This document shows positions 8,416 to 46,724 of a stretch of DNA of 64,000 nucleotides, piece by piece (within the stretch, counting starts at the first letter, position 1; each line of letters starts with the position of its first letter). The position numbers and the translations under genes were made by a program. This DNA is from Sinorhizobium mexicanum (GTDB lineage Bacteria; Pseudomonadota; Alphaproteobacteria; Rhizobiales; Rhizobiaceae), in NCBI RefSeq assembly GCF_013488225.1, contig NZ_CP041238.1, forward strand, positions 2,815,501 through 2,879,500, written 5' to 3'. Below the pieces are notes generated by a model. That model did no database searches. It was not told where the DNA came from and saw only the letters and a list, made by a program, of their open reading frames with translations.

Positions 8416-8883
8416 TGCACGCACGGCGCGTTCCAATGAACGCGCCGTGCAACCTGCGCACTCTATAACTTTATAAAAGCGCGCGCGGCAGGAAATCCCG
8501 CCGCTTTCAGGCCTAACCTGAATGCGGCGTGATCTGCCGAGATTGGCGGGTTCCCGTAGCCTTCATGCGACTGGAAAGACGCACGGCTACAAGGGCCCGC
8601 CTCTTTTCGCTCTTATCCATCCGGCGATGGTTTCTTTATACCGGCGGAAACCGCGGAGTGGTCGTCCCCGTAGACCCACGACATTTCTTGCGATGCGCGC
8701 AAACGCCCGCAATCAACGATCGTCAGTGGTCATGCGCGGATCGGGAGATCGGTGTGCTACACCAGACCGCCTCTTCGCATTGGGCCACGACCGACAGGTT
8801 CTCGGTGGTTCACCGCGCCGTTGACAGTGAGACCAATCCTTTGAAACGACGCGATTTCCAGGAAAATTCGTTACGAACTTCCT
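8416..8883. other. 468-base intergenic region between convergent genes
   Basis: Apart from the strong hairpin at its left edge, nothing could be assigned. An Arg-rich frame at 8522-8824 lacks a ribosome binding site and resembles no family. Confidence 0.5.
8421..8450 (+). terminator. Perfect 13-bp hairpin after the repeat gene
   Basis: GCACGGCGCGTTC (8421-8433) and GAACGCGCCGTGC (8438-8450) flank a 4-base loop, 6 bases after the stop codon. No T-run follows, so it may act as a Rho-aided terminator or mRNA-stabilising stem. Confidence 0.6.
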
Positions 8884-9675
8884 TCAGAAACGAATAGCGA
8901 CCCCGATGATCGGCCCGTGCTCGATCACGTCGTATGTGAAACCGTCATTGCTGTAGTCGACGCCCATGGCGCGATAGCCGGCAAGGGCAGAGATCCGGTC
9001 GTTGATGTTGTAGCCGATCGCCCCGACCAAGTCCCAGTCCAGGTCGGCCTCACCGGCGCCAACGAGCCCCCAGCCGGTAACGTACCACTCCGGCGTGAAC
9101 GAATAGAGGCCGCGCAGGCCGACCAGCCCGTCGACCCAGGTTTCCTTGTCTTCTCTCGAAACACCGTCCAGAATGCCGCCCCTGAACGAAATCTCCGTGT
9201 CCGCCGACCAGACCTTGACGCCGCCGATGACATCGAGACGGGCGCTGCTGTCGTCGACGACATTATAGCCGGCGCCGAGAAGACCGGAAAAGGTTGACGT
9301 TTTCACATCGACCTTGTCGGCGAAAATTCCACGCGGCGTGGCCGAATCGGTCGATACCTTCGAGTATTGCAGATCCGTGAAGATGCTGAAGCGGCCGTAT
9401 CTCGCTTCGCCCGCCGCCATGAGGCCGAAATCGAGGTCGGGAATGATGTCGCTGAAGCTCTGGTCGATCTCGACCGTCGGCAGGCCGAACGACGCCGTAT
9501 CTCCCTCGAGCCCGGCCATCCAGAAATAGGGCGCAAAGGAGAAGGTCCAGCCTTCGGGGCTCTCTTCGGGCTGAGGTTGAGGCGCCAGCGCCGGCAGGAT
9601 ATCCGCCGCGTGAACCGGGCCGCTTGTTGCCAGCGCGAGAAACGGAGCAAGGACGCAGATTGACGCAACTCTCAT
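8884..9675 (-). CDS. Outer-membrane beta-barrel protein
   Basis: The 263-residue protein has a signal peptide (about 1-24, ending VHAAD) and a chain of short amphipathic strands such as WTFSFAPYFWMAG, RYGRFSIFTDLQYSK and SGLLGAGYNVV. It ends in VAIRF; a C-terminal Phe is typical of BAM-dependent barrels. The size suggests an 8-12 strand barrel. The function is unknown; similar small porin-like proteins are numerous in rhizobia. GGGGGAA precedes the ATG at 9675. Confidence 0.7.
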   Translation of the reverse strand: MRVASICVLAPFLALATSGPVHAADILPALAPQPQPEESPEGWTFSFAPYFWMAGLEGDTASFGLPTVEIDQSFSDIIPDLDFGLMAAGEARYGRFSIFTDLQYSKVSTDSATPRGIFADKVDVKTSTFSGLLGAGYNVVDDSSARLDVIGGVKVWSADTEISFRGGILDGVSREDKETWVDGLVGLRGLYSFTPEWYVTGWGLVGAGEADLDWDLVGAIGYNINDRISALAGYRAMGVDYSNDGFTYDVIEHGPIIGVAIRF

Positions 9676-10130
9676 GACAGTTCCCCCCGCGCCGCTTGGC
9701 GCTTTCGCTGCGTGACCGCCCTCCAGGGGGAGCGGCGGCATTCCCTCTACTGCATGTTCCCTTAAATCTGAGCCGACTCAGGGACAAAAACATGCACCAA
9801 CTCAAAGTACCACAACGTACTTCGCACGTCGGATAAGACGCGCGGCGCTGTAGAGAGCCGTTGCGTGCTCCGACGATTCGCAAGGCCGATGCAACGCATT
9901 GAATTGCTGGATGATTTTCTCGGCAGGCCCGCGCTCGATCCAGCAAATCACAGAGCCGGACTATCCCACAGCTACGCAGCCTAGACAAGAATTCGCAGCT
10001 GACACACGCACGAGAGGATCTCCGTGTGGCTTTCGCGCACCTGCTCCATCGCCCACTTCGGCGGGCGGGATGGCAACCTTTCAGCAACCCCTAGTGCTGA
10101 TAATGCCGGCGCAATCGAGGACCGAATCGG
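9676..10130. other. 455-base divergent intergenic region
   Basis: It holds one mosaic repeat (9752-9853) and otherwise no supportable gene. The promoters of the outer-membrane gene and the nuclease gene must lie here. Confidence 0.5.
9752..9853. repeat. Mosaic palindromic repeat, copy 2
   Basis: It has the core ACAAAAACATGCACCAACTC and the end GCGGCGCTGTAG, in the same order as the copy at 56645-56752. TGAGCCGACTCA marks a short palindrome inside it. Confidence 0.8.
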
Positions 10131-10859
10131 ATGGCCAAGGCGAGTTCAAAAAGGCGGAAGCGCGGCACGAGCCGGAAGGGCAATGGCGGCGGCATGGTGC
10201 CGTGGTATGTCGCGGCGGTCCTTATGATCGGCGGGATCGCGGCCTATGACCATCGGGCGAAACTGCCGGATCTGCCCGGCGCCTCCGAGGTGGTCGCCAT
10301 GCTTTCACCGAGCGAGACGAAGACAAGACCGGTGGCCGCGCGGGCCACACCGAAGCCGAAAGAGCATACCGGCTCGATCGCCAGGAAGCCGGAGCTCGCC
10401 TCCCCTTCCCCGATCGTCGGAAAGCCAGCGCTCGTTCCTCCCGCTCCGGTCGGGCGACCGATGGAGCAGCCGACGCCCCGGTTTGCCGACGCCGACACCT
10501 TTTATTTTTGCGGCATTCGCAACGATAACTGCGTTGTCGACGGTGATACCTTCCTTTTCAAGGGCGAAACGATCCTGATCGCCGACATCGACGCGCCCGA
10601 GACGAAGGAGGCGAAATGCGAGGCGGAACGCGCGCGCGGCTTCTACGCCAAGCAACGGCTGCGCGAGTTGCTGAACGCTGGTCAATTCACGCTCGTCGCG
10701 TCCAGGGGCAGCGGCGGCAAGGAAGGCGGAACCCCGCATCTGGTGATGCGCAACGGAAGATCGTTGGGCGACGTTCTCGTCTCCGAAGGGCTTGTGCGCA
10801 AACGAGCCGGAGAGCCATCCTCCTGGTGCGGCCGCTCCGTCGCTCGCGTCTCCGGCTGA
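10131..10859 (+). CDS. Membrane-anchored SNase-like nuclease
   Basis: The 242-residue protein has a basic N-terminus, one membrane helix (about 24-39), a Pro-rich linker and a staphylococcal-nuclease-like domain from about residue 120. The motif VDGDTF (136-141) and the strand ILIADIDAPE (148-157) match the family, with Asp residues for calcium and Glu157 before the active-site loop. The domain ends early compared with full SNases, so activity should be tested. The Cys pair in FCGIRNDNC suggests a periplasmic disulphide. Confidence 0.75.
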   Translation: MAKASSKRRKRGTSRKGNGGGMVPWYVAAVLMIGGIAAYDHRAKLPDLPGASEVVAMLSPSETKTRPVAARATPKPKEHTGSIARKPELASPSPIVGKPALVPPAPVGRPMEQPTPRFADADTFYFCGIRNDNCVVDGDTFLFKGETILIADIDAPETKEAKCEAERARGFYAKQRLRELLNAGQFTLVASRGSGGKEGGTPHLVMRNGRSLGDVLVSEGLVRKRAGEPSSWCGRSVARVSG

Positions 10860-10889
10860 TCCATATCACCCCTTCATTTGGGCGCCCAC

Positions 10890-11780
10890 TCAGCCGAAGC
10901 GTTCGTGATCGGCGAGCACCGCCTCGATCACGCGGCGCGATTTCTCCACTTCGAGGCGATCGGTGCCTGGAACCTCGGCATAGACGATGAGCGCCTTCCA
11001 GAGCGTCCAGCCCCGCCCGCGCGCCCAAGTCGCTTTGTCGAGCGGCAGCGCGGCGCGGAACACCTCGCGACTCTCCCCGTGAAAAAAGGTCCAGGCGACC
11101 GAGAGGTCGCACGAGGGATCGCCGACGCCCGAGGTGCCGAAATCGATGACGGCGCTCAACCGGCCGTCCTCGACCAGAAGATTGCCGGAACTTACGTCGC
11201 CGTGGAACCAGACCGGCGCGCCGTACCAGGTCGCTGCGAGCGCCGCTTCCCAGACGGCGCGTGCCGCATCCGTATCGATCCTGCCCTCAAGGGCTTCAAG
11301 CGCGAGGCGCGTTTCCCCGTCATAGACGGTGAGCGGTCCGCCCCGGAAAAAATTGTGCTGCCCTGGCGGCGGCCCGTCGGTGGCGTCGACCTCCCGCAGA
11401 GCGACAAGGAACCTGGCCAAGGTCGTCGCGAAGGCACTGAGATCGGCGACAGGCGCATGGGTCGCGATCTCGCCCTCGCGCCACTTGTAGACCGACCACG
11501 GCCAGGGATAGCCTTCACCGGGCCGGCCTTGAGCCAAGGGCACGGGAATGGGAAGCGGCAGGCGCGGGGCAAGGACCGGCAGCCATCGCTGTTCCTTCTC
11601 GACCTGAAGCGCATAGGGCGCGGCGCTCGGCAGCCGCACGGTCATGTGGCTGCCCAGATGGAAGGTCCGGTTGTCCCACCCGCCGAACCGGACAGGGCTG
11701 ATCGGAAGATGCGCCCACTCTGAAAATTGCGCGGCGATCAACCGGCTGACGAGAGATGCGTCGATGTTCATCATATCCAC
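10890..11780 (-). CDS. Aminoglycoside phosphotransferase-like kinase
   Basis: The 296-residue protein shows the APH fold: the N-lobe motif FGGWDNRTF, the catalytic loop WFHGDVSSGNLLV (Asp and Asn) and the metal-binding IDFGTSGVGDPSCDL. The gene begins with GTG at 11780; ATG codons at 11774 and 11771 are alternatives. Most chromosomal members of this family in soil bacteria phosphorylate small metabolites or antibiotics of unknown identity, so a resistance role should not be assumed. Confidence 0.8.
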   Translation of the reverse strand: MDMMNIDASLVSRLIAAQFSEWAHLPISPVRFGGWDNRTFHLGSHMTVRLPSAAPYALQVEKEQRWLPVLAPRLPLPIPVPLAQGRPGEGYPWPWSVYKWREGEIATHAPVADLSAFATTLARFLVALREVDATDGPPPGQHNFFRGGPLTVYDGETRLALEALEGRIDTDAARAVWEAALAATWYGAPVWFHGDVSSGNLLVEDGRLSAVIDFGTSGVGDPSCDLSVAWTFFHGESREVFRAALPLDKATWARGRGWTLWKALIVYAEVPGTDRLEVEKSRRVIEAVLADHERFG

Positions 11781-12125
11781 AGTTGCATTTGACAGCGAAA
11801 GACATCAACCTTCTAGGGTATAACGCAGCAAAGCACAAAACCGCTTTCCGCGCTCGCGCCGCCTCTAAACTACGAGAATCCATCACATTTAGGCTTTCAA
11901 ATCGCCTTCAGGTGCTTCTTGTCATCGGCTGATGCCGCGCTAAGATGCGGAGGTTCTTTGACACGACCGGCCGCCGTGGGCCCAGCGTCCGTGACGGTTG
12001 CGCCTGCCGAACAGACAAAAGACATACCGCACGTCCGGCGCGCGACGAGGTCCGACCGGGGTTGCGACGAGCAAAGCCGGCGAAAGAACGAGAGGTCACA
12101 TGGGAAGCGGATGGGGGCTGAAAGC
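11781..12125. other. 345-base region upstream of the cbb3 operon
   Basis: The open frame reaching back to 11919 has no family-like sequence before the first membrane helix, so it is treated as non-coding. No TTGAT-N4-ATCAA box (FixK/FNR type) was found by eye. A TTGAC and an ATCAA occur near 11788, but their spacing is wrong for such a site. Confidence 0.5.
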
Positions 12126-39677: not shown

Positions 39678-40391
39678 TCAGTCGCGGTTACGCTGCGGCG
39701 CGAGCGACAGCGCCTGGGCATAGGCCAACGGCGAACGGTTGCCGGGCATGTTTTCGTCCAGGATCAACGTCTTCAGATTATCGGAGCGAACGTCAAGAGC
39801 CACCGCCCGTTCAAGTTTGTCGACCGACCAAACGACGTAGCCGAGTTTCGCGCTATATCCACACTCGCATCCGCAGTTGCAGTCACGTTCGCGCTCATGC
39901 TCGTGTTCTCCTTCGCATGTACATCTTGCTGCGATGATTTTGTGCGGGGAGACAGGCAGAATCATGATTTGCGGCTTCGGGAGTTTGTAGCAATGCCCTT
40001 CATAGGCATAGCCGTAAATTACCCCAACACTTTCAAAGCCACCACACACCCCGGTATCAACGGATATATAATGGAAATATTCGGATGACTTCACCGCAAT
40101 TATAACATTATCTGTACCAATACTTGTTTTTTTAATCATATCATCGATAACTACTCCCATTACATCAATAACATCTCCATAATTTTCGGGTGAAATTTTT
40201 GAATTGCTTCTCAACAGTTCTTCTATTTTTTCCTTGTAATAACCATGCGTCTCCGTTGAATCTTTCTGTTTCTTAAAGATATTACCAGGCCTTCCGTAGA
40301 GCCTTATTTCTCCGGGATTGTAGGGCCCCCTACGTCCCGTTATCTCACCCGGGTCAGTGAACAAGCTTGGATTTCCACAACAATCACTCAT
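39678..40391 (-). CDS. Cys-rich protein of unknown family, last gene of the YcaO-TfuA cluster
   Basis: The 237-residue protein has ten Cys: CC at 4-5, single Cys at 116 and 134, CTC at 157-159 and CNCGCEC at 171-177, with a charged EHEHERERD stretch between the last two groups. I do not recognise it. By hand count GC is 137 of 360 bases (38%) across 39961-40320, against 40 of 60 (67%) in 40501-40560, so it looks acquired or under different constraint. GAAGGAGAGGG precedes the ATG. The metallopeptidase gene ends 19 bases upstream. It may be the substrate or cargo of the YcaO/TfuA enzymes; this is an inference. Confidence 0.7.
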   Translation of the reverse strand: MSDCCGNPSLFTDPGEITGRRGPYNPGEIRLYGRPGNIFKKQKDSTETHGYYKEKIEELLRSNSKISPENYGDVIDVMGVVIDDMIKKTSIGTDNVIIAVKSSEYFHYISVDTGVCGGFESVGVIYGYAYEGHCYKLPKPQIMILPVSPHKIIAARCTCEGEHEHERERDCNCGCECGYSAKLGYVVWSVDKLERAVALDVRSDNLKTLILDENMPGNRSPLAYAQALSLAPQRNRD

Positions 40392-40410
40392 GTCCCTCTC
40401 CTTCCCAGCT

Positions 40411-41595
40411 CTATCTTCGAGTCATAATCTCACGCCATGCGAAATTGGCTTCCAGCACGTCGGCGGTCGCCCCGCCTGCAGCGGAAATGATGGCGTTTGC
40501 CGCCTGATCAAGCCGTAACGTGTTCGGATCGAGCACCTGCAGCGCGCCCGCCAGCGCTTGCCCAACTGCATCGCGGGCGGCGGTCAGCGCCAATCTGAAG
40601 ATCATCGGCTTGACCTGGAAGGCCCCTGCTGTCATCTGCCGGAAACGGTCGAAATCATCCAGTTCCAGATCCCGAATGTCGAAATCCAGTAGACGCGTGT
40701 CCGCGCAATCGCGCGCGACGAGTTCGCGATGATAAAGCTCGACGATCGTGTCAAAGATGGCGCCGATGAAGGGAAGCGCGCGGTCATGCACCTCGCGCGA
40801 TGTCTCCGACATGCGACGAAAATTGGTGGCGAGGCGGATCTGGGTCTCCGGGCTCGTCTCCGCAAAGCGGTTGAGCTCGTTGTAGAGCAGCAGATTGCCT
40901 CTCGTTCGGCGCAGCAGCCGGTCGATGGCGGAGTCGAAATGCAGGAACGAGATCAACGAAACCACGTCCGAAAAGGCTTCGGAGAACGGGAAGAAGTCGC
41001 TGTCGCGCGACGGAGCCGTCGGGATCCCTGCTTCGGATAGCAAGATCGTGTGACCGATCTCGTGGGCGATCGTGTCGAAATTCAACGCATAGGGCCGCCT
41101 TACGCCTTCGATGTCGGAGCAACCCAATTCCAGGAAGCCATAGCCCGCGTGTGCGTTGTCCCAGTTAACGAAGGCGACGATCTCAAGCCGCGGAAAGGTC
41201 TGGCGAAAGAACCAGCGGATCGGGTGGCCCAGATAGCTCTGCCAGATGTCGAGAACGAAACGGACGCAGGCATAGGCATGCACGTCAAGAAATGCCCTCG
41301 AGTCAGGCCGTAGATTATCGAAGTGACGGTCCGGACCGGGCCTTGGTGGAGCACGCTTGGCTCCGCCAAACGGCGGGAGTTGATTGAAGCCGTATGGCTC
41401 CTTGTCGGCGAGCGGATCGACCACATACATGGTGGGGTCGCTCGGCCCCTCGCCGATTTCGTCGCGCGGTATCGAAAGCCACACGCGATCCGGTTCTTCA
41501 TATCCGGGAATGAACGGCGGTTGGGGGAATATCCAGAAACGCGTACCAAGACGCGCGTTTGCCGAGTCGAGGGCATCGTCTCGAAGCAGACGCAT
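40411..41595 (-). CDS. Gluzincin-type zinc metallopeptidase
   Basis: The 394-residue protein has HEIGH (178-182) in TIAHEIGHTILLSEAG, and 24 residues later Glu206 in FPFSEAFSDVVSL, the spacing and SEAxSD context of thermolysin-like gluzincins. There is no signal peptide, so it may act in the cytoplasm. GAGGGGGGC lies 9 bases before the ATG. It is 35 bases after tfuA and 19 before the Cys-rich gene. In a RiPP setting it could be the leader protease. Confidence 0.75.
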   Translation of the reverse strand: MRLLRDDALDSANARLGTRFWIFPQPPFIPGYEEPDRVWLSIPRDEIGEGPSDPTMYVVDPLADKEPYGFNQLPPFGGAKRAPPRPGPDRHFDNLRPDSRAFLDVHAYACVRFVLDIWQSYLGHPIRWFFRQTFPRLEIVAFVNWDNAHAGYGFLELGCSDIEGVRRPYALNFDTIAHEIGHTILLSEAGIPTAPSRDSDFFPFSEAFSDVVSLISFLHFDSAIDRLLRRTRGNLLLYNELNRFAETSPETQIRLATNFRRMSETSREVHDRALPFIGAIFDTIVELYHRELVARDCADTRLLDFDIRDLELDDFDRFRQMTAGAFQVKPMIFRLALTAARDAVGQALAGALQVLDPNTLRLDQAANAIISAAGGATADVLEANFAWREIMTRR

Positions 41596-41630
41596 AGCAC
41601 AATTGCCCCCCTCGATAGAAAATCCGGCAA

Positions 41631-42410
41631 TCAGGGATTCAATTTATAAGTGTTTACTAAATTTGAGTCAATGCCGCCGGCTTCCAGATCGCGGATGAAG
41701 GTGTTCGTCGCAACCCAGTCAACGGGGCCGCGCGCCTTTGGGCGCTGCCGTGCAAGGGCCGGTGCGCGTTCCAGAGCAAGGAGCGCGTCGCGCTTCTTCT
41801 GCCTTTCGATTTCATTTCTCAACCTCCTTGCGTCATCGTCGCTCCATCCGCCGGCCCGCAGGACCGCGTTGAACGAGCGCTCCCGAAAGTTCATCTCTAG
41901 CGCGATCGTTGTGAGCAGGCGACGCTCTTCGGCTTCGATAAAACCGCGGCGCATCAGGCTCGATAACGTCCGCTGAATATCGACCAGCGAGTCCGTCAGC
42001 GGCGGGAAGCCCAGTTCGGCGGGCCCCGAGTGGACGGCGACCGCATCGTCGGGCGCCAGCCGCCAGCGCCGATACCATCGATAGATCAGGCCGACGCCGA
42101 CCATGCCGAACGCGTCGAGTTCCGCCGCCCGGAGCGCCCCCATGCTGGCGGCCCCGATCATCACGATCCCCTGCCCCATCGCCCACAGGATTTCCTTATG
42201 CCTAACGGATGGCCTATCCTCGAATTGTCCGTCGATCAGGACCATCGCGCGCGGGTGAAATGCATGGGCGGCAAGCAGAATGTCGCCTTGCGCAGCCGGC
42301 TGCAGATAGATGGCGTCGAGCACGGCCTCCGCTTCCGCGAGCCTGAGGGTTGGACCAAGAAACACCAGGATCGGACCTTGATTGCTCGAATCGGCCATTG
42401 CCGCGCTCAT
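41631..42410 (-). CDS. TfuA-like protein, YcaO partner
   Basis: The 259-residue protein has the TfuA core: VFLGPTL (16-22), PPA-like QPAAQGDI, LIDGQFEDRPSVRHKEILWA (58-77) and GAASMGALRAAEL (86-98), then FGMVGVGLIYRWY. TfuA proteins pair with YcaO enzymes and are thought to supply sulphur for backbone thioamide formation; the first was found in the trifolitoxin cluster of Rhizobium. The ATG overlaps the ycaO stop by 4 bases (ATGA). The longer frame back to 42881 is rejected because it lies inside ycaO. Confidence 0.9.
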   Translation of the reverse strand: MSAAMADSSNQGPILVFLGPTLRLAEAEAVLDAIYLQPAAQGDILLAAHAFHPRAMVLIDGQFEDRPSVRHKEILWAMGQGIVMIGAASMGALRAAELDAFGMVGVGLIYRWYRRWRLAPDDAVAVHSGPAELGFPPLTDSLVDIQRTLSSLMRRGFIEAEERRLLTTIALEMNFRERSFNAVLRAGGWSDDDARRLRNEIERQKKRDALLALERAPALARQRPKARGPVDWVATNTFIRDLEAGGIDSNLVNTYKLNP

Positions 42411-43618
42411 CGCAGGATGGAAAAGGGCGTGGCTCCCGGGAGGATAACCCTCACGCAGTGCACGCCTGTCTCGTCGTCGGCGCCCACCGGAACCGCCAGG
42501 ATTGGTCCCAGTCCGGCCTCCAGCGTCCTTTCCATGAGTGAGGCAAGATCGGCCACCACGGGTGCCTCCGCCGAAGCAATCGGCATCGCGGGTGCTCCCT
42601 CGAGAATGAGCTGGCGCGCCATCGAGACGAGGGTGTCGGTGCTTCTTCGATAATGTCCTCGGCTCTGGTCGTCGCGCGCGCCCGATATCGCACCTGCACG
42701 CGCCGAGAGCGCCTCGAGCATTGCGCTCGCCGCGGCTGCGGCGATGCTTGGACCGGCCGCATAGCCCTCGGTCGGGAGCGCCAGGATCGGTTCGCCGGGC
42801 CCCGTTTCGATCGACTGGCACCAGACGACCGGAACACCGGTTGGCGAGGGCGCCAACCACAGGCCGAAAGACACCCCACACACGCCGGCAACGGATCGGA
42901 TGTAGTCGACCCGGTCCCCCAGCCCCGAGGGCGCGATCCGCATCCGGTCGAAGAAGCCATGCGTGACGAAGGCCCGCGCGATGGCGTCACGCTCGATGCA
43001 TTCGAACAACCCGTGCAGGAACGCACCGTGGGCCGACGTATGACAGGCAAGACCGGTGGTCGTGCGCGTGAAGAGGCCGTCGCGGGCGGGCGGCGGCTCG
43101 GTATAGCAGGTATGGACAAGTTCAAAAGGAACCGGCTGCGCGGCCCCGGAGGAGACGTCCGCTCCAGCGACCCAAGGGATTTCCTTCTTCCGCCAGTTCG
43201 CCCCGCCCGCGGGTACCAGAAGATTATCAAACAGGCCTTCCGTCAGTCCGAGTTCGTCGGCAGTCGCAAGGAAGACGCGCGTCCCTGGAATGGACTCGGC
43301 GAAGAACCGCTCAAGCGATTCCATGATCGCGCCCACTGCCGCCTCCACCATGACGAGTCCGCGCCCGAGAGACGTCACTTCCGAGAGCGCTGCCGGACGA
43401 ACCGCCTGGACGACCGGAAGGCCGATCCGGTCGAGCCCGGTCAGATCCGCGACCCGCGTTATCCGCGCCTGGCGACAGAGTGGCAGGATCCTCCGAAGGC
43501 GCTGTTCGGCCTCTTGCGGCCCTGCGTGGGCCGCAAAAGAACTTCGCAGGTCTGCAAGGATCGCATCGCGAAATCCGGGTAGCGCGCCATCGGAGCCCTG
43601 CCGGCCCCTCACCCGCAT
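42407..43618 (-). CDS. YcaO-domain ATP-dependent cyclodehydratase/thioamidase
   Basis: The 403-residue protein shows the YcaO nucleotide-binding signatures ESLERFFAE (100-108), GLACHTSAHGAFLHGLFE with IERDA (189-212) and LEALSARAGAISGARDD (301-317). YcaO enzymes activate peptide amides with ATP; with a TfuA partner they make thioamides. ATG at 43618 is 11 bases after the cyclase stop, though the upstream ribosome site is weak and an earlier start is possible. The tight order cyclase-ycaO-tfuA-protease-Cys protein suggests one operon. Confidence 0.9.
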   Translation of the reverse strand: MRVRGRQGSDGALPGFRDAILADLRSSFAAHAGPQEAEQRLRRILPLCRQARITRVADLTGLDRIGLPVVQAVRPAALSEVTSLGRGLVMVEAAVGAIMESLERFFAESIPGTRVFLATADELGLTEGLFDNLLVPAGGANWRKKEIPWVAGADVSSGAAQPVPFELVHTCYTEPPPARDGLFTRTTTGLACHTSAHGAFLHGLFECIERDAIARAFVTHGFFDRMRIAPSGLGDRVDYIRSVAGVCGVSFGLWLAPSPTGVPVVWCQSIETGPGEPILALPTEGYAAGPSIAAAAASAMLEALSARAGAISGARDDQSRGHYRRSTDTLVSMARQLILEGAPAMPIASAEAPVVADLASLMERTLEAGLGPILAVPVGADDETGVHCVRVILPGATPFSILR

Positions 43619-43628
43619 ATGTTCGGCT

Positions 43629-46600
43629 TCAACGCCCGATGGCAACGCCAAGCTCCCGGATCGATTGCCTGGCCCGCTCGGCAAGCGCCTCGGCGCCTTG
43701 AGCCTCCGCGATTTTCATGGCAGCGCGCAAATCCGCGGCAACAATATCGTGGGGCGCGTGGGCCTGCGCGTGGAGAACGGCTCGGCACCGGTGGAGTTCG
43801 GGAAGCCAATAGGCGTGGTGTGTTTCCTTGGCCTTCTCTATCGCTTCGTTGGCGACGTCGATCGCCGGCTCATGTTTCCCCGCCAGGCCCAGCATCGTCG
43901 CGTGCATGTAGAGATAAATCGGGAGGTCTATGACCGTGCCGAGCTGCTTCAAAAGCGAAAGGCCGCTTTGAAACGTCTCGTGTCCGCCGGCGAGATCTTG
44001 GAGATGCGCCTCGGCCCAGCCGCCGAAAAGAAGCGACAGGCCGGAAAGCGACTGCATCTCGTGCCTCCTCGCAAACTCGGCCATCCGTCCGGCAACGTCC
44101 GTGAGTCGCTGAAAGTCGTTGCGGTAAAAGGCGGACACCGCTTCCGTGTCCAGCGAGTGCGCCTTGCTCGGCGCATGCGCGATCCCGTCGACAAAGGCGA
44201 TCATTTGCGAAAGCGCCGCGTCCGATGCCTTTGGTCGGCCCGTCAGCCACAACGAAAGCGCCAGTTGTCCGAGGCCGCAAACCTTGGCGTCGTGGCCGCC
44301 ATAGAGCGTGCGGCTCGTCTTGGCCGATTGCTCGTCATAAAGCGCCAGACCCGCTTCGATCGCTTCCTGAGTCTCGCGATGGTGGCCGAGATTGAAATCG
44401 ATGGCCCAGATGCAATGGTTGACCTGCAGCCTGACCTCCGGATCTTCCACGCCGGCCAGCATGGTCTGCACCTCCAGGGCGCGGTCGTGCATGGCAGGAA
44501 AATCCGCGCCCGTCAGCCACCAGCCCCAATAGATCGGAAACCATTTAGACTGGTCCTCCATCGGTTGCCGGCGGGTGATTGCCACGCCTTTTTCATAGAG
44601 CTGACGCGCCGGCTGCGAACTCATTCCCACCATTCCGATAAGGATCGGCCCGAGTGCGACCAGCGCAGAAAGCTGCAGCGGCTCGACCCTGTGCCCGTCA
44701 CCCATCTGGTCCGCAAGCGTCAGGGCATGTTCGAGATACTGCCGCGCCTCGACCATCGCCGAGCGGCTCGATCTCTCCTTCCCCGCCGCGATGAACAGCT
44801 CGATCGCGTTTTCGAGAAGACCTGCCCGTTCCGCATGCTCGGCGAGCTCGCCGGTGTCGATCCAGGCTGCGACCTGGTGGTCCTGGCTGACGGCGCCGAA
44901 AAGGCGGCGGTGCAATGTCTGCCGCTGCTTGCGCAACAATGCGTTGTAGATCGTCTCCTGGATCAGCACATGCCGGAAGCCGTAGGCGATGCGCCCTGGC
45001 GCCCTGATCCGGATCAGAAATCCCGTCTCGCAGAGGGTATCGGCGGCACTTGCCAGCGACTTCTTGCTGAAATCCGGCAACAGCGCGTGCAGCAGCGGCA
45101 GCGTGAACTGAGAGCCCGCAATCGCGCCGGCCCGCGCCACGTCCCGGGCGGGCCCTAAATGCTGGAGGCGCGCGTCAAGAATGTTCTCGAAGGCCGAAAC
45201 GTGACTGGGCTTGACGCTTTCCGGGAGGTTGATCGTGTCGGCACCCACATTCTGCGACGCCCATTGGCAGATCTCTTCGATGAACAGCGGAACGCCGCCC
45301 GATATCCTCTCCGTCACATCGAAAAGTTCGGGAAGCATGGTGAGCCTGTGCTCCGGCCATCTCGCCCTGATCGCCAGCCGCGTCTCGTCGCGATCGAGCG
45401 CGCGCAGGGAAATACGGGTCGGATTTGCCGCATCGAGCCAGTGCACCGGGCTACCAGCCGGCTGGTAGCCCGTCGCCTGCGACTGCGGGCGCGAAGAGAC
45501 GACGAGGAGGATCGGAAGCTCGCGCAAGACCTGTGCGGCTTCCGCCAGCAGGTCCTGCGAGGTGGGATCGATCCAGTGCACGTCTTCTACCACGACGACG
45601 ATCGGTCCGTTTTGGCAGGCCGCCTTGAGCGTGCGGAACACGGCGCGATGCGCCTTTTCGCGGACCGCCTTCGGATCGCTGCCCGACAAATACTCGTTTC
45701 CTCCCTGCGCTCCGAGCAGATAGGCGAACACCTCCGTGGCTTCTTGATCGTAGATCCCGTTTCGCTCGAAGAGGTTCGTAACCGCGGCCGCCGTCAGTTG
45801 CCCGCCGACTTCCGACATGCCGCCGGGAAAACTGTTGCGCAACGGATGCAAGGTCGAGCGGAATCCGCCGGGAAGGCACTGGAAGAAAAACAGCTTGGAC
45901 CGCCGGTCGCGCGTCTTGCGGCGGACCTCCCGCAACAGCCGGGACTTGCCGATACCAGCCTCTCCCATGATCAGCAGCACCTCGCCCTGGCCGCCAAGCA
46001 CGCCCTCCCAGGTCTCGGCGATCGCAGCCAGCTCGCTTTCGCGTCCGATGAACGGACCGCCGAGCCTTCCATACGCGTAAAAGCGATTGACCTCGATCTT
46101 GTGCCCGAGCGCGCGCCACACCTTTTCCGGCTCTGTGAATCCCTTGAGCGTCTTGCTGCCCTGGAACACGAAGGCATGCGACCGGCCCGCCAGGTTGCGC
46201 GTGTCCTCGGAGACCAGCACGCTGTCCGGCACGGCGATCGCCTCCAGCCGCGCCGCCATCGCGAGCGCCGCGCCGGTGACAGCTTCCTGCGTCCAGTTCT
46301 CCATCTTGGCTTCGTTGACGAGCGCGATCGACGTCGCGACACCGACTCGAACGTGCAAATCGGCGCGCCTCGCCTCCTGGCCGACGCGCCGGCAGCCCTC
46401 GATGATGTCGAGCCCGGCGCGAATGGCGAGCGAAGCCGCATCCTTGGCATCGAGCTCGATCGGAAACAGCGCCACGCCGCCATCGCCGGCCTCGTGCTGG
46501 ATGATACCGGAACGAGAGGCGATCGATTGTCTCGCCGCAGCCGCAAAGGCGGACATCAGCTCCTGGTAGTCCTCGATATCCATACGTTGGAAGAGATCGG

Positions 46601-46724
46601 TAGAACCGACGAGATCGTAGCACAGCGCGGTTACGATGCGCCGCTCGCTGTCATGCGTGGATGAACCGCGCCGTGAGCGCTTGGTCGATCGTCGTGGCGT
46701 GTTGTTCCGGCTCTCGCGAAGCAT
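43629..46724 (-). CDS. Class III cyclase-AAA ATPase-TPR signalling protein
   Basis: The 1031-residue protein has a class III nucleotide cyclase domain (about 30-200; CYDLVGSTDLFQRM, HEAGDGGVALFPIE, RVGVATSIALVN), then an AAA/STAND ATPase with Walker A GEAGIGKSRLL and Walker B VVVVEDVHW, and a long helical TPR-like half. Rhizobia carry many such proteins. The stop is 11 bases before ycaO, so it probably leads that operon. It may make cAMP in response to a protein signal, or the cyclase part may be degenerate; key purine-binding residues need alignment. Confidence 0.85.
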   Translation of the reverse strand: MLRESRNNTPRRSTKRSRRGSSTHDSERRIVTALCYDLVGSTDLFQRMDIEDYQELMSAFAAAARQSIASRSGIIQHEAGDGGVALFPIELDAKDAASLAIRAGLDIIEGCRRVGQEARRADLHVRVGVATSIALVNEAKMENWTQEAVTGAALAMAARLEAIAVPDSVLVSEDTRNLAGRSHAFVFQGSKTLKGFTEPEKVWRALGHKIEVNRFYAYGRLGGPFIGRESELAAIAETWEGVLGGQGEVLLIMGEAGIGKSRLLREVRRKTRDRRSKLFFFQCLPGGFRSTLHPLRNSFPGGMSEVGGQLTAAAVTNLFERNGIYDQEATEVFAYLLGAQGGNEYLSGSDPKAVREKAHRAVFRTLKAACQNGPIVVVVEDVHWIDPTSQDLLAEAAQVLRELPILLVVSSRPQSQATGYQPAGSPVHWLDAANPTRISLRALDRDETRLAIRARWPEHRLTMLPELFDVTERISGGVPLFIEEICQWASQNVGADTINLPESVKPSHVSAFENILDARLQHLGPARDVARAGAIAGSQFTLPLLHALLPDFSKKSLASAADTLCETGFLIRIRAPGRIAYGFRHVLIQETIYNALLRKQRQTLHRRLFGAVSQDHQVAAWIDTGELAEHAERAGLLENAIELFIAAGKERSSRSAMVEARQYLEHALTLADQMGDGHRVEPLQLSALVALGPILIGMVGMSSQPARQLYEKGVAITRRQPMEDQSKWFPIYWGWWLTGADFPAMHDRALEVQTMLAGVEDPEVRLQVNHCIWAIDFNLGHHRETQEAIEAGLALYDEQSAKTSRTLYGGHDAKVCGLGQLALSLWLTGRPKASDAALSQMIAFVDGIAHAPSKAHSLDTEAVSAFYRNDFQRLTDVAGRMAEFARRHEMQSLSGLSLLFGGWAEAHLQDLAGGHETFQSGLSLLKQLGTVIDLPIYLYMHATMLGLAGKHEPAIDVANEAIEKAKETHHAYWLPELHRCRAVLHAQAHAPHDIVAADLRAAMKIAEAQGAEALAERARQSIRELGVAIGR

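Follow-up and report, generated by a model that had tools for sequence, protein, structure and literature searches.

A conserved five-gene YcaO-TfuA unit of Sinorhizobium mexicanum with a dedicated peptidase and a putative large peptide precursor

What is made by a gene cluster that joins a cyclase, a YcaO-TfuA pair and a peptidase to a protein outside the known families? The question is raised by a stretch of 64,000 nucleotides (hereafter the window) from the 7.14 Mb genome of Sinorhizobium mexicanum, a nitrogen-fixing soil bacterium whose encoded proteins are nearest to those of Sinorhizobium. Between positions 39678 and 46724 of its minus strand, genes for a cyclase/AAA protein (gene 1), YcaO (gene 2), TfuA (gene 3), a zinc peptidase (gene 4) and a 237-residue protein (gene 5) stand in succession, with intergenic spacings of 10, −4, 35 and 19 bases. 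A previous sequence-only reading had described them as a candidate peptide-modification system. We find that the five adjacent genes form one real unit, and put at roughly 0.6 the probability that this operon is a self-contained biosynthesis of a thioamidated ribosomally synthesised and post-translationally modified peptide (RiPP), with gene 5 as a large precursor.

The unity of the cluster was established by scanning 84,980 species genomes with an alignment of the peptidase, which yielded 124 confirmed stretches; the 80 loci referred to below are the best 80 of these 124. In these loci, fetched through the peptidase, all five genes were detected by tblastn (80 of 80) and their order is kept in every one, with median gaps of 7, −2, 47 and 21 bases and a largest gap of 775, in agreement with the earlier claim that the tight cluster is one system. 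Outside the five genes, every neighbour family is confined to 23 or fewer of 97 loci when open reading frames (ORFs) of at least 100 residues are counted. In the order sample (297 genomes), 18 genomes have a strong match to the peptidase (E under 1e-60, as tallied from the match table), 18 have gene 5 and 17 have both; the exceptions are genome G183, whose contig stops just past the peptidase, and genome G187, which has a C-terminal remnant of gene 5. Strong matches become rare in wider samples, being present in 8 of 385 genomes of the class sample and in 7 of 398 of the phylum sample, the window's genome counted in both, and the latter all belong to the class of the window. The unit has also moved horizontally: in the YcaO tree, L116 and L117, clusters from two genomes of the window's family, branch together with versions from Paracoccaceae and Methylobacteriaceae, and peptidase matches occur in 124 PLSDB records, 115 of them from Rhizobium and some of chromosome size. 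The sequence-only reading had itself held that relatives keeping ycaO-tfuA without the last two genes would argue against one system. Such relatives do exist: in 18 of the 30 TfuA loci returned, one of them a second pair of the window's own genome, no peptidase lies within about 1.5 kb of the YcaO-TfuA pair; however, 17 of the 18 fall together in a single group of the YcaO tree (support 90/73), separate from both peptidase-linked groups, of which that of the window (27 rows) has support 100/100. The peptidase-free pairs thus look like other YcaO-TfuA systems and not like decayed forms of the one under study.

What the enzymes would act on is suggested by gene 5, which matched no Pfam or NCBIfam family. 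In an alignment of 81 sequences (the 80 loci and the window), residues N214, P216, G217, R219, P221 and Y224 of its tail are invariant in 81 of 81, and members of the window's branch share one conserved segment, N-x-P-G-x-R-[STA]-P-x-x-Y, as the putative core. The core region is modelled by AlphaFold2 (AF2) with low confidence; for the large leader domain a folded structure is predicted. The significance of this arrangement comes from distant clusters of the order and class samples, in which the gene following the peptidase was examined and found to encode the same leader followed by a tandem array, the units seen being VSGAR, VSGSR, VSGSK, GASVR, GAKVS, SGANLG, GRSMMT, SGGKAY, AVMASR, DLVGRS and GMNV. 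Indeed, the distant leaders and those of gene 5 are homologous (hhalign 96.9%, E 1.6e-10 over 78 columns), and a profile built from 13 distant leaders has gene 5 as its only match in the window's genome (E 4.2e-6) and, of 308 genomes of the class, matches three others, each time beside a peptidase. Three loci (L113, L136 and L137) have the window's full five-gene order together with a repeat-type precursor. Because of the poorly conserved Cys stretch, the tandem-repeat tails of the distant proteins and the homology of the leaders, we infer that gene 5 is a RiPP precursor, with a leader of ~210 residues and a C-terminal core; the large substrate that had been proposed for the last gene therefore looks correct.

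The database search with the 13-leader profile gave 1067 relatives, and the counts that follow refer to the 120 listed. C-terminal tandem repeats are present in 112 of these 120; the corresponding figures are 2 in 2400 for shuffled tails, 1 in 120 for peptidases and none in 116 for homologues of the window type. The period of the 112 arrays is five in 101 cases, 7 in seven, 10 in three and 9 in one, and periods of 4 or 6 are seen in loci L138, L111, L113, L114, L136 and L137. Gly is found in all 112 units, Cys in none, Ser or Thr in 91 (the window core has Ser/Thr as well) and G-x-[R/K] in 78, against 27% of shuffled units; the G-x-R motif is shared with the invariant P-G-x-R of the window. 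The repeat-type precursors, of 149–322 residues, carry 31 distinct units among the 112 arrays, three being double units, which suggests that the enzymes may accept varied short sequences. Also, in 14 arrays that were examined, each of 4–12 units, the units differ pairwise by 978 synonymous and 143 non-synonymous codon changes (the pairs are not independent and the figures carry no neutral expectation), so that the peptide unit is held while the DNA of the array drifts. The importance that the sequence-only reading attached to Cys residues is not borne out: since the Cys stretch of gene 5 is poorly conserved, the tail (residues 212–237) has no Cys and neither has any of the 112 units, Cys cyclisation (−18 Da) is unlikely at the core, and thioamidation is favoured over it.

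In the pathway that we propose, the leader of gene 5 (about residues 25–211) would present the C-terminal core (about residues 212–237, centred on PGNRSPLAY), the leader domain docking the precursor on YcaO-TfuA. YcaO, with sulfur from TfuA, would then exchange a backbone oxygen for sulfur at G217-N218-R219 (G-x-R) or beside it, the thermolysin-like peptidase of gene 4 would cut the modified core off the leader, and the cyclase/STAND ATPase of gene 1 may control production or activity, by sensing or by setting the timing. In the second branch, the tandem array of short units, mostly of five residues, would give many product copies per precursor.

The features of the locus are listed in Table 1. 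The adjacency of ycaO and tfuA is that of YcaO-TfuA thioamidated RiPPs, and the best NCBIfam models for the two proteins are those of the McrA-glycine thioamidation pair of methanogens, TIGR03266 for YcaO (129.2 bits, cut-off 365) and NF033432 for TfuA (171.5 bits, cut-off 235.2). Residues E100, E103, E206, E209, R210, E302 and R307 of YcaO are kept in at least 97% of the 81 sequences. By these family matches the two enzymes look like the peptide-modification pair that had been put forward. In respect to gene 4, which is 89% identical to an S. terangae protein, H178, E179, H182, E206 and D210 are the same in all 47 sequences aligned, and the predicted model has a thermolysin fold; with its HEXXH motif and distal Glu it is, by this model, an M4-like gluzincin peptidase, differing from the M4/M36 thermolysin-like peptidases by the low identity of the fold matches (11–15%) and by the absence of an M4 match in the Pfam scan. 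A built-in protease, as the sequence-only reading had it, is thus supported by the predicted fold. No signal peptide is seen on gene 4 by eye (no predictor was run).

Gene 1 retains the metal-binding D37 and D81 and a Walker A motif (GEAGIGKS), and is related to the kinase/cyclase fusion of thiazole/oxazole-modified microcin (TOMM) clusters (TIGR03903, 292.6 bits, below the cut-off of 705.75), but lacks the N-terminal kinase part, the alignment covering profile positions 275–1267. In respect to the class III nucleotide cyclases, the PF00211 match and the two metal Asp are present and the transition-state Asn is not: the residue at what we take to be its position is Ala, in the window as in the 14 variants shown. 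A putative cyclase-type regulator is attached to the cluster, as had been claimed, and the pathway may be signal-controlled, by a cyclase that keeps the metal Asp and not, in these variants, the usual Asn. In the available text of PMC2887384, a large Ser/Thr kinase adjoins the TOMM precursors of Burkholderia and a nucleotide cyclase is not mentioned.

Table 1. Features of the five-gene unit in the window (positions of the window)
Feature	Position	Strand	Remarks
Gene 1, class III nucleotide cyclase + AAA_16/STAND-type ATPase + C-terminal region, 1031 residues	43629..46724	-	putative regulator
Gene 1 cyclase catalytic domain, residues 31-195	46140..46634	-	PF00211 match
Gene 2, YcaO, 403 residues	42407..43618	-	PF02624, 165.7 bits; putative ATP-dependent backbone-activating enzyme
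Gene 3, TfuA, 259 residues, 4-base overlap with YcaO	41631..42410	-	PF07812, 140.3 bits; putative sulfur-delivery partner
Gene 4, thermolysin-like (M4/M36 fold) zinc peptidase, 394 residues	40411..41595	-	putative core-releasing protease
Gene 4 HEXXH zinc site, H178-E179-I-G-H182	41050..41064	-	E206/D210 at 40966-40980
Gene 5 ('Cys-rich'), 237 residues, leader domain + C-terminal core	39678..40391	-	putative RiPP precursor
Gene 5 leader block 1, residues 119-147 (...IYGYAYEGHCYKLPKPQIM...)	39951..40037	-	mean top-residue fraction 0.77 in 81 sequences; homologous to distant leaders
Gene 5 Cys-rich insert, residues 148-176, poorly conserved	39864..39950	-	occupied in 0.41 of 81 sequences
Gene 5 leader block 2, residues 177-211	39759..39863	-	mean top-residue fraction 0.65; homologous to distant leaders
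Gene 5 putative core, residues 212-237 (DENMPGNRSPLAYAQALSLAPQRNRD)	39681..39758	-	aligns with the tandem-repeat position of distant homologues

The strength of the proposal has to be judged against what the same data would mean if gene 5 were a protein substrate that stays whole, its tail being thioamidated by YcaO-TfuA as in McrA and uL16, with the peptidase serving in regulation or quality control and the modified protein itself as the product. The six residues invariant in 81 of 81 window-type sequences, the large leader domain predicted to fold, the lack of an exporter-like family common among the neighbours and the McrA-type models as best scores of YcaO and TfuA all agree with this, whereas the arrays of 4–12 units in the 14 distant-branch cases fit the release of many short peptides, and an endopeptidase stands beside the precursor not only in the 80 loci, which were found via the peptidase, but also in 17 of 18 cases of the precursor-first search; we consider a whole-protein substrate fairly unlikely. 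The repeats could instead be structural, the relatives of gene 5 being pentapeptide-repeat-like β-helix proteins and YcaO-TfuA having some other target. The period of five in 101 of 112 arrays goes along with this, as do the 11 of the 120 listed relatives that are labelled PF00805 or PF05671, the score of L112 above the PF00805 cut-off (24.1 vs 20.2) and units such as ANVRG, similar to the A(N/D)LXX consensus. However, a strict five-residue period does not hold across the family, since window-type members are repeat-free and periods of 7 or 9 (8 of 112) and of 4 or 6 (six loci) misfit a five-residue coil, which makes a β-helix quite improbable. As for azol(in)e heterocycles of the TOMM type in place of thioamides, the relation of gene 1 to the TOMM kinase/cyclase model and the Ser/Thr of 91 of the 112 units and of the window core would suit them, but Cys occurs in none of the units, TfuA is present in 80 of 80 loci and a constant E1-like C protein or dehydrogenase is not apparent (no outside family exceeds 23 of 97 loci; profiles for these were not run), and we regard such products as very improbable.

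Several observations weigh against a thioamidated RiPP cut from gene 5. The leader matches no recognised fold, YcaO and TfuA both score under the cut-offs of the thioamidation models, and no small protein that might serve as a ThiS-like carrier is conserved next to the cluster across the 80 loci (no ThiS profile was searched). Within the window's branch the core is one segment, with repeats in none of the 116 homologues, so that its putative identity comes from position and leader homology; such conservation is uncommon among RiPPs, and the product may be the modified protein itself, not a released peptide. Among the repeat-type relatives, 8 of the 120 listed fall under the repeat threshold, 11 bear the Pfam pentapeptide-repeat labels, 34 of 112 units are without G-x-[RK], and the AVMASR unit of L136, outside the 112-unit list, is without Gly. 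Finally, the G527 locus (L138) has repeats, but YcaO is not adjacent, the single YcaO of that genome being on another contig. In favour of gene 5, a competing short precursor finds no candidate near the cluster, where no short ORF family is present in more than 10 of 80 loci. Within the thioamidated RiPP that we favour, a more specific proposal is that the window-type product is one fixed peptide with an intracellular, cofactor or signal-like role, not an antibiotic, and that the repeat-type relatives are its diversifying cousins. This derives from the conservation of the core across rhizobia and other Alphaproteobacteria, the lack of a conserved exporter and the tie to a nucleotide-cyclase/STAND sensor, and is tentative and, in our view, rather unlikely.

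Among known systems, that of the thiovarsolins (var cluster of Streptomyces varsoviensis) appears closest in the available text of PMC6511847, where YcaO and TfuA are adjacent, the precursor family extends from members without repeats to members with five imperfect ones, the thioamide of the [A/G]PR core links Pro and Arg, and the cluster is described without a dedicated protease. The [A/G]-P-R cores are similar to the G-x-R found here, an analogy at the motif level that proves nothing on the position of a thioamide in the present system. In contrast to the large leader domain and the sizes found here, that work sought precursors among ORFs of 20–120 residues (PMC6511847). In respect to McrA thioamidation, in which the modified residue is Gly according to the text available of PMC5589413, genes 2 and 3 differ by scoring below both cut-offs and by their linkage to a dedicated precursor, peptidase and regulator. 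The catalogue based on antiSMASH of PMC8120280 holds, in the text available, more than 500 TfuA clusters from Rhizobium, among which the loci studied here probably are, and describes the YcaO-TfuA thioamidated RiPPs then known as all from Actinobacteria; in its main text the terms 'repeat', 'adenylate', 'cyclase' and 'protease' do not occur, and the sole 'peptidase' is Peptidase S9, prolyl endopeptidase. Neither a description of this five-gene system nor of YcaO together with a gluzincin was found in the open-licence literature. By its sequences the system would be a new form of YcaO-TfuA RiPPs and not a new kind.

The precursors may have been overlooked because their sizes, 149–322 residues and 237 in the window, exceed the ORFs of 20–120 residues in apparently non-coding regions that RiPPER covers, the tool used at standard settings in PMC8120280. 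One large Alphaproteobacterial group would gain a concrete putative precursor, core and protease, making the product directly searchable. Six positions of the core do not vary across 81 sequences, a sign of some function that merits a search in this well-studied genus of symbionts.

Some further observations concern variants of the locus. The remnant in G187 (L166, 1501–1647, minus strand) is a 48-residue ORF that comprises the leader end and an entire core of the window type; its genome gives no match to the peptidase, and the ORF looks like a decayed gene 5. In seven loci (L105, L106, L111, L112, L114, L132 and L135) the large cyclase is missing and a class III cyclase-TPR protein of about 590 residues, 861 in L135, adjoins the precursor; its gene is convergent with that of the precursor in six of the seven, and the motif Asn is retained in the six shorter proteins (the 861-residue one not counted). 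The precursor homologue beside the longer protein of L135 (8659–9291) is a non-repeat form with an Arg-rich tail (RRRPRVRSRRRRW). The TfuA ORFs of L103, L105–L108, L110–L114 and L138 have about 430–515 residues, compared with 259 in the window, and in those of L106, L113 and L138, which were scanned, only TfuA reaches its Pfam cut-off; in L138 (G527, 8493–11861) TfuA, peptidase and a (GMNV)x4 precursor stand together. The second YcaO-TfuA pair of the window's genome (L167, 9680–11871; G000 C4:1740879-1743070) has no peptidase or precursor relative in 20 kb, and directly before its YcaO a 72-residue ORF (9680–9898) is a possible short precursor. The G+C content of the window falls to 55.6% at 40001–42000, a segment that takes in the peptidase gene together with some of gene 5 and the 3' portion of tfuA, against 62–66% on either side.

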